DNA of 64,000 nucleotides from Gemmatimonas sp. Its GTDB lineage: Bacteria > Gemmatimonadota > Gemmatimonadetes > Gemmatimonadales > Gemmatimonadaceae. The translations under genes were made by a program, and so were the position numbers. Location: assembly GCA_011390885.1 (NCBI GenBank), contig JAABRO010000011.1, positions 124,001 to 188,000 on the forward strand. Reading direction: 5' to 3'. The notes under the pieces are model-generated. The model was not told the origin of the DNA, did not search any database, and was given only the letters and a program-made list of their open reading frames with translations. Of this stretch, positions 2,037 to 12,509 are shown in pieces. The first letter of the stretch is position 1; every line of letters starts with the position of its first letter.

Positions 2037-4331
2037 ATGCGCGTCACGACCGTCGGCGTCGTGGGTGCCGGCGCGATGGGGAGCGGCATTGCCGCCCTCG
2101 CCGCCTCGGCCGGCCTCCGCGTCGTCCTGCTCGACATGCCTGGCGCCCCCGATCGAAGCGGGCCGGCCAAGGGCGGGCTCCAGAAGGCCCTCAAGGCCAA
2201 GCCCGCCGCCTTCATGCACCCGAGCGCCGCGACGCGCGTGCGCTGCGGCAACACCGAGGATCATCTCGACTGGCTCGCCGAGTGCGACTGGATCGTGGAG
2301 GCGATCATCGAGTTGCCGGAGCCCAAGCAGCAGCTCTTCGCGCGTCTCGAGCCGCTGCTCAAGCCGTCGGCCATCGTGACGACGAACACGTCGGGCATCC
2401 CCATGGCGCGGCTGCTCGAGGGACGGAGCGAACGCTTCCGCCGCCGCTTCCTTGGCACGCACTTCTTCAATCCGCCGCGCTACATGCACCTGCTGGAGCT
2501 GATCCCCACGCCGGAGACGGACCCGGCGGTGATCGGCGCCATGCGCACCTTCGCCGAGCGCATTCTGGGCAAGGGCACGGTCGTGGCGAAGGACGTGCCG
2601 GGGTTCATCGCGAACCGGCTCGGCGTGTACGGCATGGTGAGCACCATGCGCCGCATGATGGAGCACGGCCTCACGATCGACGAGGTGGACGGCCTCACCG
2701 GCGCGCTCGTGGGGCGCGCGAAGAGCGCGACCTTCCGCACCGGCGACCTCTCGGGGCTCGATGTGCTCGCGCACGTGACGCGTGGCATGGCCGAGGCCAC
2801 GGGCGAGGACCTCGCGCTCCCCGAGTGGGTGCACGGGCTCGTGGCGCAGGGCAGGCTCGGTGACAAGACGGGCGCCGGCTTCTACCAGAAGGCGAAGGAC
2901 GGCGTGCTCACATACGATTGGCGCACCGGCGCCTACGCGCCACAGCAGCGGCTCGGCGGTGGTGACATCGGCCAGCTCACACGACAGCCACACGCGGCGC
3001 GACTGCGCGGCGCGCGCGAACTCACCGGCGCGCACGGCGCCTTCCTGCGCGATCACCTGGTGGACGCGGCGCACTACGCGCTGACGCTCGCTCCCACCCT
3101 GGCGCACGACGTGGTCGCGATCGACCGCGCGCTGCAGTGGGGCTATGGCTGGGAGATCGGCCCGTTCCAGGTCATCGACGCACTCGGGCACGAGTGGCTC
3201 GCCACGCAGTTCGCGGCGCGCGGCCTCGAGGTGCCGTCGCTGCTCGGGCTCGCGCAGGGCGCGTTCTACAAGGGCGGAGAGTACCTCACCTTCAGCGGTG
3301 TGTACGAACCGATCCCCGCGATCCCCGGCAACATCAACCTCGCGCTGCAGCACGAGGCAGGCCGCACCGTGGAGGACGATGGCACGGCGCGCCTGGTGGA
3401 TCTCGGCGACGGCGTGCTCTGCTTCGAGTTCCGCAGCAAGATGAACACGCTCGGGCAGACGCTGCTCGAGGGGCTCGCGAAGGCGATGCGCAAGGTGGAG
3501 CGCGGCGGCTACGCCGGTCTCGTGCTCGGCAACGACGACGCGCGCACCTTCAGCGCCGGCGCCGACCTCGCCGCCGTGTCCTTCGGCGTGGCCGCCGGCG
3601 CGTGGGACGAGATCAACGAGAGCATCAATGGCTTCCAGCAGTCGGTCATGTCGATCCGGCGCGCGCCGTTCCCGGTAGTCGTGGCCGCGCACGGCCTCAC
3701 GCTGGGTGGTGGCTGTGAGTTCGCGCTGCACGCCGATCGCGTGCAGGCGGCGGCGGAGACCTACATGGGGCTCGTGGAGGTGGGCGTCGGTGTGCTGCCG
3801 GGTGGCGGCGGCACAAAGGAACTCGCCTTCCGCTTCACCGAGGCGCTCGCGCCGTACGAGGAGGCCGATCCGTTCGAGGCGATCAAGCGCGCCTTCAAGC
3901 TGATCGCCTTCGCGACCGCGAGCACCAGCGCACCGGAGGCGCGCGCACTCGGCTACCTCCAGGCGAGCGACCGCATCAGCATGAACCGCGACACGCTGCT
4001 CAGCGACGCGAAGCAGCGCGTGCTCGACCTCGCGCCCGACTACGTACCGCCAGCGGAGAAGCGCATGCGCGCGCTCGGCCGCGACGGTTTCGGCAACCTG
4101 CTGTACGCCCTCTGGGCCGCGCAGGAGGCCGGTCAGGCCTCGGCCCATGACGTGCGCGTGGGACGCGCGGTGGCATACGTGCTGTGCGGTGGTGACGGTG
4201 CACCGCGCGAGGTGAGCGAACAGGACCTGCTCGACCTCGAGCGCGAACAGTTCCTGTCGCTGCTCGGCACCAAGGAAACCCAGGCCCGCATCGAGCACAT
4301 GCTCCAGACGGGCAAGCCCCTTCGCAACTGA
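2037..4331 (+). CDS. fadN: FadN-type bifunctional 3-hydroxyacyl-CoA dehydrogenase / enoyl-CoA hydratase
   Basis: This 764-residue beta-oxidation enzyme hydrates enoyl-CoA and oxidises the resulting 3-hydroxyacyl-CoA with NAD. The domain order is dehydrogenase first and hydratase/isomerase last, as in Bacillus FadN and opposite to E. coli FadB. The Rossmann motif GAGAMGSG is at residues 10-17 and the dehydrogenase block GTHFFNPPRYMHL is near residue 140. The C-terminal crotonase half carries SAGADL and LTLGGGCEFALHADR, which form the oxyanion hole. An A/G-rich site (GGAGAG) precedes the ATG. It is followed by the thiolase fadA, and the two form a classic operon. A roughly 230-base leader region separates it from msrA. 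Confidence 0.95.
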   Translation: MRVTTVGVVGAGAMGSGIAALAASAGLRVVLLDMPGAPDRSGPAKGGLQKALKAKPAAFMHPSAATRVRCGNTEDHLDWLAECDWIVEAIIELPEPKQQLFARLEPLLKPSAIVTTNTSGIPMARLLEGRSERFRRRFLGTHFFNPPRYMHLLELIPTPETDPAVIGAMRTFAERILGKGTVVAKDVPGFIANRLGVYGMVSTMRRMMEHGLTIDEVDGLTGALVGRAKSATFRTGDLSGLDVLAHVTRGMAEATGEDLALPEWVHGLVAQGRLGDKTGAGFYQKAKDGVLTYDWRTGAYAPQQRLGGGDIGQLTRQPHAARLRGARELTGAHGAFLRDHLVDAAHYALTLAPTLAHDVVAIDRALQWGYGWEIGPFQVIDALGHEWLATQFAARGLEVPSLLGLAQGAFYKGGEYLTFSGVYEPIPAIPGNINLALQHEAGRTVEDDGTARLVDLGDGVLCFEFRSKMNTLGQTLLEGLAKAMRKVERGGYAGLVLGNDDARTFSAGADLAAVSFGVAAGAWDEINESINGFQQSVMSIRRAPFPVVVAAHGLTLGGGCEFALHADRVQAAAETYMGLVEVGVGVLPGGGGTKELAFRFTEALAPYEEADPFEAIKRAFKLIAFATASTSAPEARALGYLQASDRISMNRDTLLSDAKQRVLDLAPDYVPPAEKRMRALGRDGFGNLLYALWAAQEAGQASAHDVRVGRAVAYVLCGGDGAPREVSEQDLLDLEREQFLSLLGTKETQARIEHMLQTGKPLRN

Positions 4332-4354
4332 TGACGACCAGGGAGAATGCACAC

Positions 4355-5524
4355 ATGAACGACGTCGTGATCGTCAGTTGCGTGCGCACTGCCGTGGGCC
4401 GAGGCAAGGCCGACGGGGCGCTCGCGTCGGTGCACCCGGTGGACCTGTCGGCCACCGTGATGCGCGCGGCCATCGAACGCGCGGGCATCGATCCCGCGCA
4501 GGTGGACGACGTGCAGTGGGGATGCGCGATGCCCGAAGCCTCGCAGGGACTCAATCACGGACGGCTCGCATGGCTGCGCGCGGGCTATCCCGTGGAGACG
4601 CCGGCGGCCACGATCAATCGCTTCTGCTCGTCCGGGCTGCAGGCGGTGGCGTACGGTGCGCAGGCCATCATCGCCGGCCACGCCGACGTGGTGCTCGCGG
4701 GCGGCATCGAGATGATGTCGCAGGTGCCCATGTCGGGCTATCACACGCGTCTCTCGCCCGAGATCACCGAGAGCTACATCGGCATGGGCTTCACGGCGGA
4801 ACGCGTGGCGCAGCGCTGGGGAATCACGCGCGAGATGGCGGACGACTTCGCCTACGCGTCGCAGCAGAAGGCCGGCGCGGCGCTGGCGGGCAAGGTGTTC
4901 GCGCCCGAGATCGTGCCCGTCACGGTCACGCGTGACGCGTGGCAGGGCGCGACGCGCACCACCACCGAGCACGTGGTGGACACCGACGAGTGCCCGCGCC
5001 CCGAGACCACGCGTGAGGCCATGGCCGGCCTGCGCCCCGCGTTCTCGGCGAAGGGCACGGTCACGGCCGGCAATGCGTCGCCCTTCTCGGACGGCGCCGC
5101 GGCCGTGCTCGTGATGAGCCGACGCAAGGCCGACGAACTCGGGCTGCGTCCGCTCGCGCGCTTCGTGACGTTCGCCGTGGCCGGCGTGTCCCCCGACATC
5201 ATGGGCGTGGGACCGATCCACGCGATCCCGAAGGCGCTCGGGCGCGCCGGCCTGTCGCTCGGCGACATTGCCCTCATCGAGTTCAACGAGGCGTTCGCCG
5301 CGCAGGCGCTCGCCGTGATGCACGAACTGCAGATGGACCCGGCGCGCACCAACGTGAACGGCGGCGCGATCGCACTCGGTCACCCGCTCGGCGCCACGGG
5401 GGCCAAGCTCACCACGCAGCTCGTGCACGAACTGCAGCGGCGTGGCGGCGGCATGGGACTGGTCACCATGTGCATCGGCGGCGGCATGGGCGCCGCGGGC
5501 GTGTTCGAGGTGTACCCGGGGTGA
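4355..5524 (+). CDS. fadA: Acetyl-CoA C-acyltransferase (3-ketoacyl-CoA thiolase)
   Basis: Thiolase cleaves 3-ketoacyl-CoA with CoA to give acetyl-CoA and a shortened acyl-CoA. The 389-residue protein has the nucleophile Cys91 in NRFCSSGLQ, the GHPLGATG histidine motif and the C-terminal acid/base cysteine in CIGGGMGA. An ATG overlapping the fadN stop (4331, TGATG) is in frame. The better start is the ATG at 4355, because AGGGAG at 4340-4345 sits 9 bases before it and the protein then begins with the usual MNDVVIVSCVRTAVG. It is co-transcribed with fadN and is followed by a strong bidirectional hairpin. Confidence 0.96.
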   Translation: MNDVVIVSCVRTAVGRGKADGALASVHPVDLSATVMRAAIERAGIDPAQVDDVQWGCAMPEASQGLNHGRLAWLRAGYPVETPAATINRFCSSGLQAVAYGAQAIIAGHADVVLAGGIEMMSQVPMSGYHTRLSPEITESYIGMGFTAERVAQRWGITREMADDFAYASQQKAGAALAGKVFAPEIVPVTVTRDAWQGATRTTTEHVVDTDECPRPETTREAMAGLRPAFSAKGTVTAGNASPFSDGAAAVLVMSRRKADELGLRPLARFVTFAVAGVSPDIMGVGPIHAIPKALGRAGLSLGDIALIEFNEAFAAQALAVMHELQMDPARTNVNGGAIALGHPLGATGAKLTTQLVHELQRRGGGMGLVTMCIGGGMGAAGVFEVYPG

Positions 5525-5661: not shown

Positions 5662-6201
5662 TTACATCGGCGCGCTGGTGGTCTGCGCGCGCAGCTCACC
5701 CTTGGGGTTGGCCTTGGTGTGGATGTTCGTGTAGGCACCGCCGGTGCGCACCGTCTCGCGCAGGTCATCGAACGTGACCCCTTCGGGGAGTGCCGTCTCG
5801 CGCGTGATCGTGCCCATCGCCACCGAGCCGTTGGCGAAGTCGGCGCCGTCCGCGTTGCTGTACAGCGTCGCGATCACGGGGCCCGCCTCCTCCGCACCGC
5901 CGCGATGGATGTGCACCGCCGTGACGCCCATCACGTCGAGGCCGTTGACGACGAAGCCGATGCTGTCGGCATACACCATGTACGTGGCCTCGGCCTGTGC
6001 CTTCGACGCCACCGGATCGGGGCGTTCCTGCGCACCGCTGAGCGTGCTGACGAGCATTTCCATGGACGGCGCTTCGCTGATCATCTCGGCCGTGGGCTCG
6101 GACGACGCGTCGGCGGCCGTATCGGCGCCGCCGCCGCAGGCAGCGAGCAGGAGCGACGCACCGAGGGTGATCGGGACAATGGCAGGGCGCAGCAGGGACA
6201 T
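5662..6201 (-). CDS. CHRD-domain lipoprotein
   Basis: This is a 179-residue exported lipoprotein. The signal peptide ends in the lipobox LAAC with Cys22. An Asp/Ser/Thr-rich linker then leads to a CHRD domain, recognised from LSGAQERP, the VHIHRGG block and GELRAQ near the end. CHRD domains occur in extracellular proteins of bacteria and in chordin; their function here is unknown. The start is set by GGAGG at 6206-6210, just upstream of the ATG. Further upstream in-frame codons would place cytoplasmic residues before the signal peptide and are rejected. Confidence 0.85.
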   Translation of the reverse strand: MSLLRPAIVPITLGASLLLAACGGGADTAADASSEPTAEMISEAPSMEMLVSTLSGAQERPDPVASKAQAEATYMVYADSIGFVVNGLDVMGVTAVHIHRGGAEEAGPVIATLYSNADGADFANGSVAMGTITRETALPEGVTFDDLRETVRTGGAYTNIHTKANPKGELRAQTTSAPM

Positions 6202-6288
6202 GATTCCTCCGAGAGGAGCGGGTGGGGTGGGCGCGCCGAACCGGCGGCCTCCGAACCGGAAATGGCTCATGGTGGGTGGGCAAACGGG

Positions 6289-6294
6289 AATATA
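6289..6294 (-). promoter_or_regulatory. Candidate -10 box for the CHRD lipoprotein gene
   Basis: On the minus strand the hexamer TATATT lies about 88 bases before the start codon, in an otherwise GC-rich context. It would give a leader of about 80 bases. No convincing -35 box is seen. Confidence 0.35.
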
Positions 6295-6376
6295 CTCCGC
6301 GTTCACTCCGGTGGTTCCGTGCCAGCACGTGCCGTGGGCGTGTGTGACGAAGGACACCGGACGCCGATGCGCTGTC

Positions 6377-7474
6377 TTACGGCCGTCCGATGCGCCCCGA
6401 ATCGATCGACGCTACAGCCACGCGACTGAGCAACTCCACCGCCTCGCCCAACCGTGCGAAGCGCGGATCGCTCGTGAGTCCGCGCTCGAAGCGCGCGACG
6501 AGCTGCTGCGCCACGATCGCGAGCTTGAACACGCCGTACACGTGACAGAAGACGGGATGCGCGACGTCGCGTCCACTGCGCTCGGCGTAGCGCATGACGA
6601 GCTCGTGTCGCGATGGCATGCCGGGGTGCGTGGTGATGCCGAGGCCCAGCGCTCGCAGCAGCGGTGGGTCGTCCGGCTCGATCCAGTACGCGAGCGTCGT
6701 GCCCAGGTCGAGCATCGGACAGCCCACGGTGGCCATTTCCCAGTCGAGGATGGCGCACACGCGTGTGAGGTCGGCACGATCGAGCACGAGGTTGTCGAAC
6801 TTGAAGTCGTTATGCAGCAGGGACACGCCCGCATCATCCGGGCGGTTCGCCTCGAGCCACGCCGCGATTGCATCGAGACGCGGCACGTCGCGCGTGCGCG
6901 CCTTCTCCCACCGCGCGGTCCAGCCTCGCACCTGGCGCTCCACGTAGCCCGCGCCGCGGCCGAGGCCGGCGAGCCCGAGAGACGCCACGTCGAGCCGGTG
7001 CAGTGCGACCAGTTCGTCGACGAACGCGTCCGCGAGCCGCGCGGCGATCGACGCATCGAAGTGCGCGCCCTCGGGGGGCGCCGCGCGCAGGATCACGCCG
7101 TCCACGTACGTCATGAGGTAGAACGGCGCGCCCAGCACGCTCTCGTCGTCGCAGGCCGCGAGCGGCTGGGGCACCTGCAGCCCGGCCGCGTACAGCGCGG
7201 CGAGCACCCGGTGTTCGCGCAGCACATCGTGCGCCGCGCCCTCACGCTCGCCGCGCGGCGGCCGGCGCAGCACCATCGGCCGCGCGGCGCCATGCACCCG
7301 ATACGTGAGGTTGGAGAAGCCGCTCATGAACTGCGTGAGGCGCAGCGGATCGTGTCCCGTGCCGAGCAGATGCGGGGCCGCGGCATGCAGCCACGCCGTG
7401 AGCGAGGCGGCGTCGAGCACCTCGCCCGGTCGCATGGCGACCGTGTCGTGTGGCCCACCCGCTGCGTCGCTCAC
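6377..7474 (-). CDS. APH-family phosphotransferase (ACAD10/11 or LvaA-like small-molecule kinase)
   Basis: The protein (365 residues) is an aminoglycoside phosphotransferase/choline-kinase-fold enzyme. The catalytic loop HNDFKFDN and the metal-binding ILDWE are both intact, as is the N-terminal nucleotide region around MVLRRPP. Proteins of this subtype partner with acyl-CoA dehydrogenases: they are fused to one in mammalian ACAD10/11, and separate as LvaA in Pseudomonas putida, where the kinase phosphorylates a 4-hydroxyacyl-CoA. It is the last gene of an SDR, dehydrogenase, kinase operon, 24 bases after the dehydrogenase. That context favours an acyl-CoA substrate over antibiotic resistance. 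GTG at 7474 is used; an internal ATG at 7435 is possible. Confidence 0.88.
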   Translation of the reverse strand: MSDAAGGPHDTVAMRPGEVLDAASLTAWLHAAAPHLLGTGHDPLRLTQFMSGFSNLTYRVHGAARPMVLRRPPRGEREGAAHDVLREHRVLAALYAAGLQVPQPLAACDDESVLGAPFYLMTYVDGVILRAAPPEGAHFDASIAARLADAFVDELVALHRLDVASLGLAGLGRGAGYVERQVRGWTARWEKARTRDVPRLDAIAAWLEANRPDDAGVSLLHNDFKFDNLVLDRADLTRVCAILDWEMATVGCPMLDLGTTLAYWIEPDDPPLLRALGLGITTHPGMPSRHELVMRYAERSGRDVAHPVFCHVYGVFKLAIVAQQLVARFERGLTSDPRFARLGEAVELLSRVAVASIDSGRIGRP

Positions 7475-7498
7475 CCGAGCCGGGCCGGGCGCGCGCGA

Positions 7499-8713
7499 TC
7501 AGCCACGGCGATGGGCGTCCAGGGCGCGCCGCGCAATCACCGTCTTGTGCACCTCGTCCGCCCCGTCGTAGATGCGCGCCGCCCGTTCGTGGCGATACCA
7601 CCACGCGATCGGCGTGTCGTCGGTCATGCCGAGCGCCCCGTGCACCTGCAGCGCACGATCCAGCACTCGCTGCAGCACGTTCGCCACGAACACCTTGATG
7701 TACGCCACCTCGGCGCGTGCTGCCCGCTGCCCGTCGCGCTCGATGCGCGCCGCGGCATCGAGCACCATGAGCCGCGCAGCGTGGATCTCGATGCGCGACT
7801 CCGCGATCCAGAACTGCACCTGCTGCTGCTCGGCCAGCGGATGGCCGGGCGTGAGCTCGCGCGAGAGCGCGTACCGGCACATGAGCGCGAAGGCGCGCTC
7901 GCACACGCCGATCCAGCGCATGCAGTGGTGAATGCGACCGGGGCCCAGGCGCTCCTGCGCCAGCATGAATCCCGCGCCCGCGTCGCCGAGGCGATTGTCC
8001 ACCGGCACGCGCACGTTCTCGAGCGTCACTTCGGCGTGGCTCGCCCAGCCGCCGCCCGTCTCGCCCATCACGGAGATGTTGCGCACGAGCGTGAAGCCGG
8101 GCGTGGGGAGCGGCACAATGATCTGCGACGCGCGCGCGTGCGGCGTCGCCTCCGGCTCGGTCACCGCCATCACGATGGCGAACGCGGCCCCGTCGGCACT
8201 CGACGTGAACCACTTGTGCCCCGTGATCACGTACTCGTCGCCATCGCGCACCGCGCGCGTGGAGAGCTGCGTGGGATTGGAGCCCGCGTGCTCCGGCTCC
8301 GTCATCGCGAAGCAGCTGCGGATCTCACCGCGCGCCAGCGGACCCAGCCACCGCGCCTGCTGCTCCGCGGTGCCGAACTGGTGCAGCAGCTCCATGTTCC
8401 CCACATCGGGCGCCTGGCAGTTGCACACGTAGTGGCCGAAGGGCGTGGTGCCGAGCACCTCGGACAGCTGCGCGAACGCGGAGAGCGACAGCCCCTGCCC
8501 GCCAAGCGCGACGGGCAGGAACGGTGCCCACAGGCCGCGTTGCCTGGCGTCGGCGCGCAGTCGCGCGAGCTGTGGTTCGATCGTGGCCCAGTCGCCGTGC
8601 AGCAGCGCCGGCTCGCACGGGATCAGCACCTCGCGCACGAAGGCGCGCGCCGCGTCCAGCAGCCGCTCGAGCGTCGACTCGGCCACGTCGCGCGCGTGCG
8701 CCCCTGCACTCAC
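7499..8713 (-). CDS. Acyl-CoA dehydrogenase (ACAD11/LvaC-like)
   Basis: This 404-residue flavoprotein belongs to the acyl-CoA dehydrogenase family. It carries the FAD/substrate blocks CFAMTEPEHAGSN and GHKWFTSSADGA, and a C-terminal RIYDGADEVHKT. The GTG start at 8713 overlaps the stop of the upstream SDR by 4 bases, so the two are translationally coupled. Members near ACAD10/11 and LvaC do not simply desaturate. With a partner kinase they rearrange phosphorylated 4-hydroxyacyl-CoA, a role known from those systems and only inferred here. A general short- or branched-chain dehydrogenase remains the alternative. Confidence 0.9.
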   Translation of the reverse strand: MSAGAHARDVAESTLERLLDAARAFVREVLIPCEPALLHGDWATIEPQLARLRADARQRGLWAPFLPVALGGQGLSLSAFAQLSEVLGTTPFGHYVCNCQAPDVGNMELLHQFGTAEQQARWLGPLARGEIRSCFAMTEPEHAGSNPTQLSTRAVRDGDEYVITGHKWFTSSADGAAFAIVMAVTEPEATPHARASQIIVPLPTPGFTLVRNISVMGETGGGWASHAEVTLENVRVPVDNRLGDAGAGFMLAQERLGPGRIHHCMRWIGVCERAFALMCRYALSRELTPGHPLAEQQQVQFWIAESRIEIHAARLMVLDAAARIERDGQRAARAEVAYIKVFVANVLQRVLDRALQVHGALGMTDDTPIAWWYRHERAARIYDGADEVHKTVIARRALDAHRRG

Positions 8714-9507
8714 ACCAGGTACCCGCCGTCGGCCATGTACACGCCACCGGTGCAGAACGCCGAGGCGTCGCTCGCGAGGAAGAGCACCAGCCCTGCGATG
8801 TCGTCCGGCACGCCGATGCGCCCGATCGGCTGCCGATCGGCGATCGTGTGCACCATCTCGTCGTCCCACAGCACCTTGCTGAAGCGTGTCTTCACCAGCC
8901 CGGGGCACACGACGTTCGCGCGAATGCCGTCGGCGCCCCACTCCTGCGCCATCACCTTGGTGAGCGAGATGAGCGCCGCCTTGCTCACCGAGTAGAGTCC
9001 GAGGCCGGGCTCCGGCGAGATCCCGCCGATGGACGCGATGTTCACGATCGCGCCGCCGCCACGCGCCTGCATCACCGAGTGTGCGGCGCGGCACAGCTCG
9101 AGCGGACCGAACACGTTCACGGCCATGATCTTCGCGAACACCTCCTCGCCCTGCTGCTGCAGCGGCCCGAACACCGGGTTGGTGGCGGCGTTGTTCACGA
9201 TGATGTCGATGCCGTCGTAGGCCTCGACCGTGCGCGCGGCGAGCCCGCGCACATCGTCCATCTGCCCCATGTGGGCCACCACGCCCGTGACGTCGAGACC
9301 GTCATGCCGAAGGGCCGCCGCGGCCGCCTCCACGTGCTCGGGCTTTCGGCTCGACACCACCACCCGCGCGCCGGCGCGCGCCAGTGTGGTCGCGGTCGCG
9401 AACCCGATGCCACGCGTGCCCCCGGTGACGATGGCGACCTTGCCGTCGAGCCGGAGGCGCGCGAGGGCGTCGGCATCGCGGGGAGTGACGGGTTCATGCG
9501 TGCTCAC
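8710..9507 (-). CDS. Short-chain dehydrogenase/reductase (SDR)
   Basis: This is a classical SDR of 265 residues. The cofactor loop TGGTRGIG, the NNAA motif, the catalytic Ser in NIASIGG and the YSVSK Tyr/Lys pair are all present. Arg residues shortly after the first beta-strand (VVVSSRKPE) suggest NADP(H), though this is not decisive. It heads a minus-strand operon with the acyl-CoA dehydrogenase and the APH-family kinase. In the P. putida levulinate pathway the SDR LvaD reduces the 4-keto group; a similar role is plausible here. The 143 bases upstream hold only a weak 6-bp hairpin (9588-9607). Confidence 0.9.
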   Translation of the reverse strand: MSTHEPVTPRDADALARLRLDGKVAIVTGGTRGIGFATATTLARAGARVVVSSRKPEHVEAAAAALRHDGLDVTGVVAHMGQMDDVRGLAARTVEAYDGIDIIVNNAATNPVFGPLQQQGEEVFAKIMAVNVFGPLELCRAAHSVMQARGGGAIVNIASIGGISPEPGLGLYSVSKAALISLTKVMAQEWGADGIRANVVCPGLVKTRFSKVLWDDEMVHTIADRQPIGRIGVPDDIAGLVLFLASDASAFCTGGVYMADGGYLV

Positions 9508-11255: not shown

Positions 11256-12509
11256 CTATCCCTGGGGTTGCTCGACGATGCCGGCGAAGAGGATCGTGCC
11301 CGACAGCCGCTCCCGAATGAAGAAGAGGAACGGGCGGTCCACGTGCATGACGGCGCGCTGCGGCACGGAGGTGACGCCGACGCCGACCGACGTCACGGCG
11401 GCCGCTTCGGTGCCCTCCTCGTTCACGTCGATGAAGACGTCCTGGTTGACACGCGAAATGTACAGTTCGCCCGGTCCGATGCGCGAGAAGTCGGCCGCTC
11501 GCGGCGTGAAGGCGAGCCCCATGCCCATGCTCGTGAGCGAGGGCACGAGGTCGAAGCCGAGCGAGAGCCGGAACTTCGGCAGGGCGAGGTCCACATCGGT
11601 CGTGCGCAGTGAGGCCAGTCCGGCAGCCAGCGCCGGCGCGTCGAGCCCCGTGAGCCAGGCGTCGGGCGTGCTCGCCTCGTCCGGCAGCACCACGGTCATG
11701 ACATACGCGGTGTTGCCGTACGGCAGCTCGACGACCTGCGCCCCGCGCACCTCGCCGTACGTCATGTCGTCGGTGCGATGCATGGTGGGCACCGACGGCG
11801 TGGCCCCCGCGCGTGTCGTGAACGGCACGAAGCGCGTGCGTGTGGTTTCGAAGCGGTCGCGCCACGCGCCCTTGAAGTAGAGCGCGTTCATGAGCATCGC
11901 GACGAGTTGCGGGTCGAGCGACTCGACCACCTTCGGAATGCGCCCGTTGGTCTGCTGCGAGGCCCACGTGTTCATGTCGTTCACGGTGGACGGCCCGAAG
12001 TCGCCGGTGCGCACCTGCGCCGAGAACACCTGCTGCATCTCCTGCGTGTACGACGGCAGCACCGGGAAGCCCGTGCGCACCCAGAGCGCGTTCGCGCTGC
12101 GGAACTCCACCTTCGGGTCGAGGCCTGCCAGCAGCGACGGCAGGTCGCGATAGCCCGCCAGGATGTCCGCACGGCTCGCAGTGCCCCAGCCGAGCGTGCG
12201 CTTCATGGAATCGGCGGTGGCCCCGTCGGCGCCGGCGTACGCCATGCCGAGCGCCACGGAGGCACTGAGCGGCGAGAGCACGACGTTCGAGTCGGGCGTA
12301 CCGGCCGCCACCTCGCGAAGCAGCGACAGGCCGAAGTCGTTGCTGGCACGCACGGCCTCCTGCTCGAGCGCGCTCAGCGCTCGGGGCAGTGCGGTGATCG
12401 GTGCCGGTCGATCGTCCGAGGGCGCGGTGCCCGCCGTGCAGGCGGACAGGGCAGCCGTCACGACGGCCAGACGGGCGACGGTGCGAACGGCGCGGTGCAG
12501 CTTCGGCAT
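11256..12509 (-). CDS. Lipoprotein serpin (serine protease inhibitor)
   Basis: This 417-residue protein is a full-length serpin exported as a lipoprotein (lipobox LSAC, Cys24). Conserved elements include NVVLSPLSASVALGMAYAGA (75-94), the SANALWV strand and the C-terminal DRPFLFFIRE. The reactive-loop hinge EEGTEAAAVTS (364-374) has small residues at P12-P9 and Thr at P14, the pattern of inhibitory serpins. Counting 13 residues from P14 places the scissile bond at Thr380-Ser381, which suggests elastase- or subtilisin-like targets. The loop is about two residues longer on the C-terminal side than alpha-1-antitrypsin, so P1 could shift. A GGAG precedes the ATG. It likely protects the cell surface from its own or foreign proteases. 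Confidence 0.95.
   Translation of the reverse strand: MPKLHRAVRTVARLAVVTAALSACTAGTAPSDDRPAPITALPRALSALEQEAVRASNDFGLSLLREVAAGTPDSNVVLSPLSASVALGMAYAGADGATADSMKRTLGWGTASRADILAGYRDLPSLLAGLDPKVEFRSANALWVRTGFPVLPSYTQEMQQVFSAQVRTGDFGPSTVNDMNTWASQQTNGRIPKVVESLDPQLVAMLMNALYFKGAWRDRFETTRTRFVPFTTRAGATPSVPTMHRTDDMTYGEVRGAQVVELPYGNTAYVMTVVLPDEASTPDAWLTGLDAPALAAGLASLRTTDVDLALPKFRLSLGFDLVPSLTSMGMGLAFTPRAADFSRIGPGELYISRVNQDVFIDVNEEGTEAAAVTSVGVGVTSVPQRAVMHVDRPFLFFIRERLSGTILFAGIVEQPQG

Follow-up and report, generated by a model that had tools for sequence, protein, structure and literature searches.

A three-gene cluster in a 64,000-nucleotide stretch of Gemmatimonas sp. DNA (GenBank assembly GCA_011390885.1, contig JAABRO010000011.1, positions 124,001 to 188,000; the whole stretch is called the window below) raises the question of which CoA esters its products act upon. 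The cluster lies on the minus strand at positions 6377-9507 and encodes a short-chain dehydrogenase/reductase (SDR), an acyl-CoA dehydrogenase (ACAD) and a kinase of the aminoglycoside phosphotransferase (APH) family, an arrangement that was described in an initial annotation of this DNA and is borne out by coordinates and Pfam matches. That annotation equated the three genes with lvaD, lvaC and lvaA of the Pseudomonas putida levulinate pathway and proposed a role in 4-hydroxyacyl-CoA catabolism. The latter idea fits the residues and phylogeny of the kinase and the ACAD, whereas the orthology to LvaA and LvaD proved wrong. Rather, we consider it quite likely, judging from sequence comparisons, that the operon encodes a split, ACAD11-like bacterial route that brings 4-hydroxy (possibly 4-oxo) acids into beta-oxidation. 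The source genome is a 4.07 Mb draft estimated to be 95% complete.

The ACAD provides the most specific clues. Its gene (7499-8713, minus strand) starts with GTG and encodes 404 amino acids (PF00441/PF02770/PF02771, E = 4.1e-38). Enzymes of the ACAD10, ACAD11 and LvaC type differ from ordinary ACADs in three respects (PMC12440821, PMC11342911): the catalytic Glu is replaced by Asp, an Arg is located eight residues upstream of the His of an HCMR motif, and the active site is opened by a Pro. The HCMR motif is required for the activity of mouse ACAD11 (PMC12440821), and the Pro and Arg are listed as features of ACAD10 and ACAD11 (PMC11342911). In the window protein, the Asp that corresponds to D753 of mouse ACAD11 lies within YDGADEVH, the HCMR motif (equivalent to H634-C-M-R637) and the upstream Arg (equivalent to R626) occur near the FAD in ERLGPGRIHHCMR, and the Pro equivalent to P463 of human ACAD11 is located in NCQAPDVGN. 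Six other ACADs of the genome could be aligned, all of which have the catalytic Glu and none of which has the HCMR motif, the upstream Arg or the Pro; a further PF00441 match (L017) was not retrieved with the window ACAD as query and was left unscored.

In a tree of 135 ACADs, the LvaC-type proteins, mouse ACAD11, the protein of PDB 4hr3 and the clade of the window protein form one group (SH-aLRT 99) apart from ordinary ACADs, although long-branch warnings among the outgroup rows call for caution over the branching order of the outgroups. Inside this group, the window ACADs and the ACAD11 group are sisters, with LvaC branching outside both. Identities are 44% to PDB 4hr3, 43% to mouse ACAD11 and 37-39% to LvaC-type proteins. 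We propose that the window protein is of the ACAD10/11/LvaC type and is a putative phosphate-eliminating enzyme acting on 4-phosphoacyl-CoAs. The description of this protein as LvaC-like in the initial annotation, which expected both it and the kinase to fall within the ACAD10/11 and LvaA/C clades, holds for the shared clade and residues, but ACAD11 is a closer relative of the protein than LvaC is. Paquay et al. report that LvaC and the ACAD10/11 domains are 56-62% identical (PMC11342911), compared with the 33-37% identity to mouse ACAD11 that we obtained for LvaC-type proteins from lva-organised Pseudomonas loci, a set that does not include LvaC of P. putida KT2440.

The kinase gene (6377-7474, minus strand) also starts with GTG and encodes 365 amino acids (PF01636, E = 9.2e-53). 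Its best solved relatives are PDB 9o56 (E = 2.7e-79, 40% identity) and then the kinase domain of ACAD11 (E = 1.2e-51, 35% identity). The folds of the kinase and the ACAD are set by such solved relatives at approximately 40% identity, although the closest entries carry generic names ('Aminoglycoside phosphotransferase' for 9o56 and 'Putative acyl-CoA dehydrogenase' for 4hr3). The protein keeps the equivalents of the catalytic residues D220 and N225 of ACAD11 and of R86 and R176, as do all 117 members of its clade. The two arginines contact CoA in models of ACAD11 (PMC12440821), and LvaA-type kinases lack both. In a careful tree with 3ats and 9fsg as the root, a clade with support of 98/97 unites the ACAD11-3dxp group (100/99) with a group containing the window kinase and 9o56 (100/99), and the LvaA-type kinases (100/99) lie outside. 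Because of this placement, the kinase belongs to neither named subclade but is nearer to ACAD10/11 than to LvaA; the expectation noted above stood insofar as the clade uniting LvaA with ACAD10/11 includes the protein. We propose it as a candidate 4-hydroxyacyl-CoA kinase. As a separate observation, kinase matches in four relatives (L024, L025, L029 and L040) have a single stop codon within the aligned region, which is either near the C-terminal end or real.

Of 129 loci examined, drawn from many phyla, 108 have an ACAD of the HCMR type next to the kinase and on the same strand, and hence this arrangement is not due to chance. The closest parallels are unnamed bacterial clusters, annotated as acyl-CoA dehydrogenase, phosphotransferase, histidine phosphatase and SDR, that share the kinase clade and the ACAD pairing and often include an SDR. 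Such ACAD-kinase pairs are widespread in bacteria and have mostly gone unstudied; they are related to a known pathway and are not new in kind. In L050, L059, L061, L104/L111 and L144, the kinase belongs to the window clade but its partner ACAD to the ACAD11/4hr3 group. Given this conflict between the two trees, it seems that partners have been exchanged. On a Rhodococcus plasmid (L165:2032-5975), two phosphotransferase-family kinases flank a single ACAD, beside genes for a CoA-transferase and an AMP-binding protein.

The first gene of the cluster (8710-9507, minus strand, GTG start) encodes an SDR of 265 amino acids (PF13561/PF00106, E = 2.8e-60) with an SSRK motif and an S-Y-K triad that can be read in the sequence. 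Its best PDB matches are three DHRS4 sequences (E = 6.8e-63 to 8.3e-52), and its match to NCBIfam PRK07035 (249.6 bits) is below the cut-off of 373. The protein groups with human and Caenorhabditis elegans DHRS4 with moderate support, which is 94 for the inner group and 90 for the whole group in a quick tree and 86/81 in a careful tree. Other SDRs of the same genome fall elsewhere in the SDR tree. SDRs that accompany the kinase-ACAD module and group with DHRS4 come from Gemmatimonadota, Bacteroidota, Planctomycetota, Thermodesulfobacteriota, Spirochaetota, Bacillota and Pseudomonas; SDRs from different subfamilies occur at other module loci. Because proteins of the window itself served as queries in collecting these loci, the sample favours SDRs like that of the window. 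Of the 298 genomes examined from the phylum, 41 contain the SDR, 36 of these also contain the kinase, and in 24 the two genes are adjacent on one strand (Fisher p = 3.5e-19, a value that ignores shared ancestry and is indicative only).

Taken with these relatives, the gene products suggest the following route, in which the kinase and ACAD reactions are inferred by analogy from conserved residues and from the characterised ACAD10/11 and LvaA/C proteins. An acyl-CoA ligase, presumed to be encoded elsewhere in the genome, would generate a 4-hydroxyacyl-CoA, whose 4-hydroxyl group would be phosphorylated by the APH-type kinase with ATP to yield a 4-phosphoacyl-CoA. The atypical, FAD-bound ACAD would then remove the phosphate with no net oxidation to produce a 2-enoyl-CoA, which FadN and FadA, encoded next door, or other beta-oxidation enzymes could degrade. 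A related bacterial kinase and ACAD can replace the corresponding domains of ACAD10 in vitro (PMC11342911). The SDR, as a putative NADPH-dependent 4-oxoacyl-CoA reductase or similar enzyme, might supply the pathway by converting 4-oxoacyl-CoA to 4-hydroxyacyl-CoA, a role like that of LvaD filled by a different SDR subfamily. Alternatively, because the ACAD10 kinase favours the R form (PMC11342911), the SDR might interconvert the enantiomers of 4-hydroxyacyl-CoA via the ketone. Both the SDR step and the chain length of the substrate are guesses.

The window cluster has the same two domains and diagnostic residues as mammalian ACAD10 and ACAD11 (mouse structures PDB 8v3u/8v3v). However, it differs from these fusion proteins in having split genes, a kinase from a sister clade, no HAD domain and a co-encoded SDR. 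If the proposed route is correct, the recently defined mammalian pathway for 4-hydroxy acids has a broad bacterial counterpart that is distinct from the lva operon and operates without LvaB. The recurrence of a DHRS4-like SDR in the module also suggests a part for DHRS4 beside ACAD11 in animals. DHRS4 is peroxisomal, as is ACAD11, and to our knowledge its natural substrate has not been settled. We raise only tentatively, and think it rather improbable, that the SDR accompanying ACAD11-type kinase-ACAD pairs in several phyla is of the DHRS4 family and that DHRS4 is the animal reductase for 4-oxoacyl-CoAs such as levulinyl-CoA, supplying ACAD11 with 4-hydroxyacyl-CoAs. The recurrence of the DHRS4-like SDR makes this orphan animal reductase a testable candidate for a missing step.

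Several observations weigh against an ACAD11-like route for 4-hydroxy acids. The kinase clade stands apart from the two characterised groups, and one position of its catalytic loop is altered, giving HND rather than HGD in 114 of 117 members; we found no activity data or biochemistry for this clade. There is no acyl-CoA ligase or transporter in the cluster to indicate a substrate. Finally, the SDR is of a different subfamily from LvaD, and an SDR is found near the kinase in only 56 of 129 loci, many of which are too short to show one.

The separate position of the kinase clade leaves room for a related explanation, in which the two enzymes work one after the other as proposed, but on a different hydroxylated CoA ester, such as one derived from a branched, dicarboxylic, aromatic or steroid side-chain compound. 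This explanation gains from the genomic context in other lineages. The L062 and L063 clusters adjoin ABC transporter genes whose binding protein reads as the branched-chain-amino-acid type, and the L170 cluster adjoins a gene of the phenylacetate-CoA ligase type; owing to these neighbours, substrates probably differ between lineages. However, straight-chain 4-hydroxyacyl-CoAs are the substrates of those members of the wider group that have been characterised (PMC11342911, PMC12440821), and the residues that contact CoA and phosphate are unchanged. We consider a different class of substrate unlikely for the window operon.

Identity with a true levulinate operon, as the initial annotation had it, fares considerably worse. 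The P. putida lvaABCDE operon likewise combines a kinase, a phosphate-eliminating ACAD and an SDR. However, the window kinase is only 21-24% identical to LvaA-type proteins and lies outside their clade. The SDR is 31-34% identical to LvaD, and a constraint tree that groups the window-type SDRs with LvaD is rejected by the approximately unbiased (AU) test (p = 0.00025), the nearest named proteins being animal DHRS4. In addition, transcription in the order SDR-ACAD-kinase is the reverse of lvaA-B-C-D, and neither the LvaE ligase, the LvaFG transporter (a symporter) nor the LvaR regulator is encoded among the genes scanned at 2.0-12.5 kb of the window. These differences refute most of the gene-by-gene match and make a true lva operon very improbable.

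The lack of LvaB carries less weight. We confirmed that DUF6285 corresponds to LvaB by means of an annotated lva operon and operon-organised Pseudomonas loci, and a search of the draft genome found no DUF6285 protein above the cut-off, in agreement with the remark in the initial annotation that LvaB had no obvious counterpart. A sub-threshold match was dismissed, its reading frame resembling a TPR protein. The lva cluster of Pseudomonas citronellolis also lacks LvaB (PMC6692424), and both ACAD10/11 and the related bacterial kinase-ACAD pair were assayed without it (PMC11342911), so in general the chemistry can proceed without LvaB, whose absence would not be fatal to an lva assignment. In Pseudomonas inefficax (L134), a search for the lva operon found no DUF6285 and a single kinase, which falls in the same clade as that of the window. 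The Pseudomonas aeruginosa plasmid p12939-PER carries a complete lva operon (L163:6001-13053), including an annotated lvaB; the LvaA encoded there and that of genome G355 are nearly identical, suggesting a recent transfer.

An ordinary ACAD operon that happens to include an unrelated phosphotransferase, such as an aminoglycoside- or thiamine-kinase-like protein, is suggested by generic database names and by NCBIfam, where thiamine and antibiotic kinase models are the only matches to the kinase, but it is exceedingly improbable given that these matches reach 33 bits against a cut-off of 299 (for which reason both kinase identities were dropped), that the ACAD has the active-site residues of phosphate-eliminating enzymes and that the kinase-ACAD pairing is kept across phyla.

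Within the cluster, the SDR stop codon and the ACAD start codon share the four bases GTGA (8710-8713, minus strand), confirming the overlap noted previously. Translation of the two genes is therefore probably coupled, as the overlap implies. The ACAD and kinase genes are separated by 24 bases. Downstream of the kinase, a convergent fadN-fadA pair on the plus strand ends 852 bases away, close to the 900 bases first estimated. The fadN gene (2037-4331) encodes a 3-hydroxyacyl-CoA dehydrogenase/enoyl-CoA hydratase of 764 amino acids with the FadN domain order (3HCDH_N, 3HCDH, ECH), although its match to NCBIfam NF052272 (525 bits) is below the cut-off of 999. The fadA gene (4331-5524) encodes a thiolase of 397 amino acids (Thiolase_N, E = 3e-72; Thiolase_C, E = 1.6e-47). 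A gene for a CHRD-domain protein (5662-6357, minus strand; PF07452, E = 1.1e-18) occupies the gap and is probably outside the pathway. Convergent fadN-fadA is a conserved synteny of the family: a convergent FadA gene lies beside the kinase in 25 loci, all from Gemmatimonadota except for the doubtfully labelled contig L069. This contig is assigned to Candidatus Kuenenia stuttgartiensis, but its genes are ordered as in Gemmatimonadaceae and its SDR shares 73% identity with that of the window; it is probably misbinned.

Other phyla have different neighbours. Within 4 kb of the kinase, genes for a histidine phosphatase (24 of 90 loci), a TetR regulator (19 of 90) and a 3-hydroxyacyl-CoA dehydrogenase (15 of 90) recur, and genes for electron transfer flavoprotein (ETF), MaoC and enoyl-CoA hydratase are present in some loci. 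Many of the unnamed clusters include such additions, whereas the window cluster has no adjoining histidine phosphatase, TetR, ETF or MaoC gene, and the convergent FadN is the sole counterpart of the recurring neighbours. The histidine phosphatase gene adjoins the kinase-ACAD pair in L082, L113, L127, L062, L063, L168, L170 and others, and its recurrence invites comparison with the HAD domain of ACAD10, which restrains that enzyme. By analogy, the phosphatase may remove dead-end phosphoacyl-CoA. The P. citronellolis lva cluster also contains a histidine phosphatase (PMC6692424). Elsewhere in the window, a gene at 11256-12509 on the minus strand encodes a serpin-family protease inhibitor (PF00079, E = 1.7e-97).

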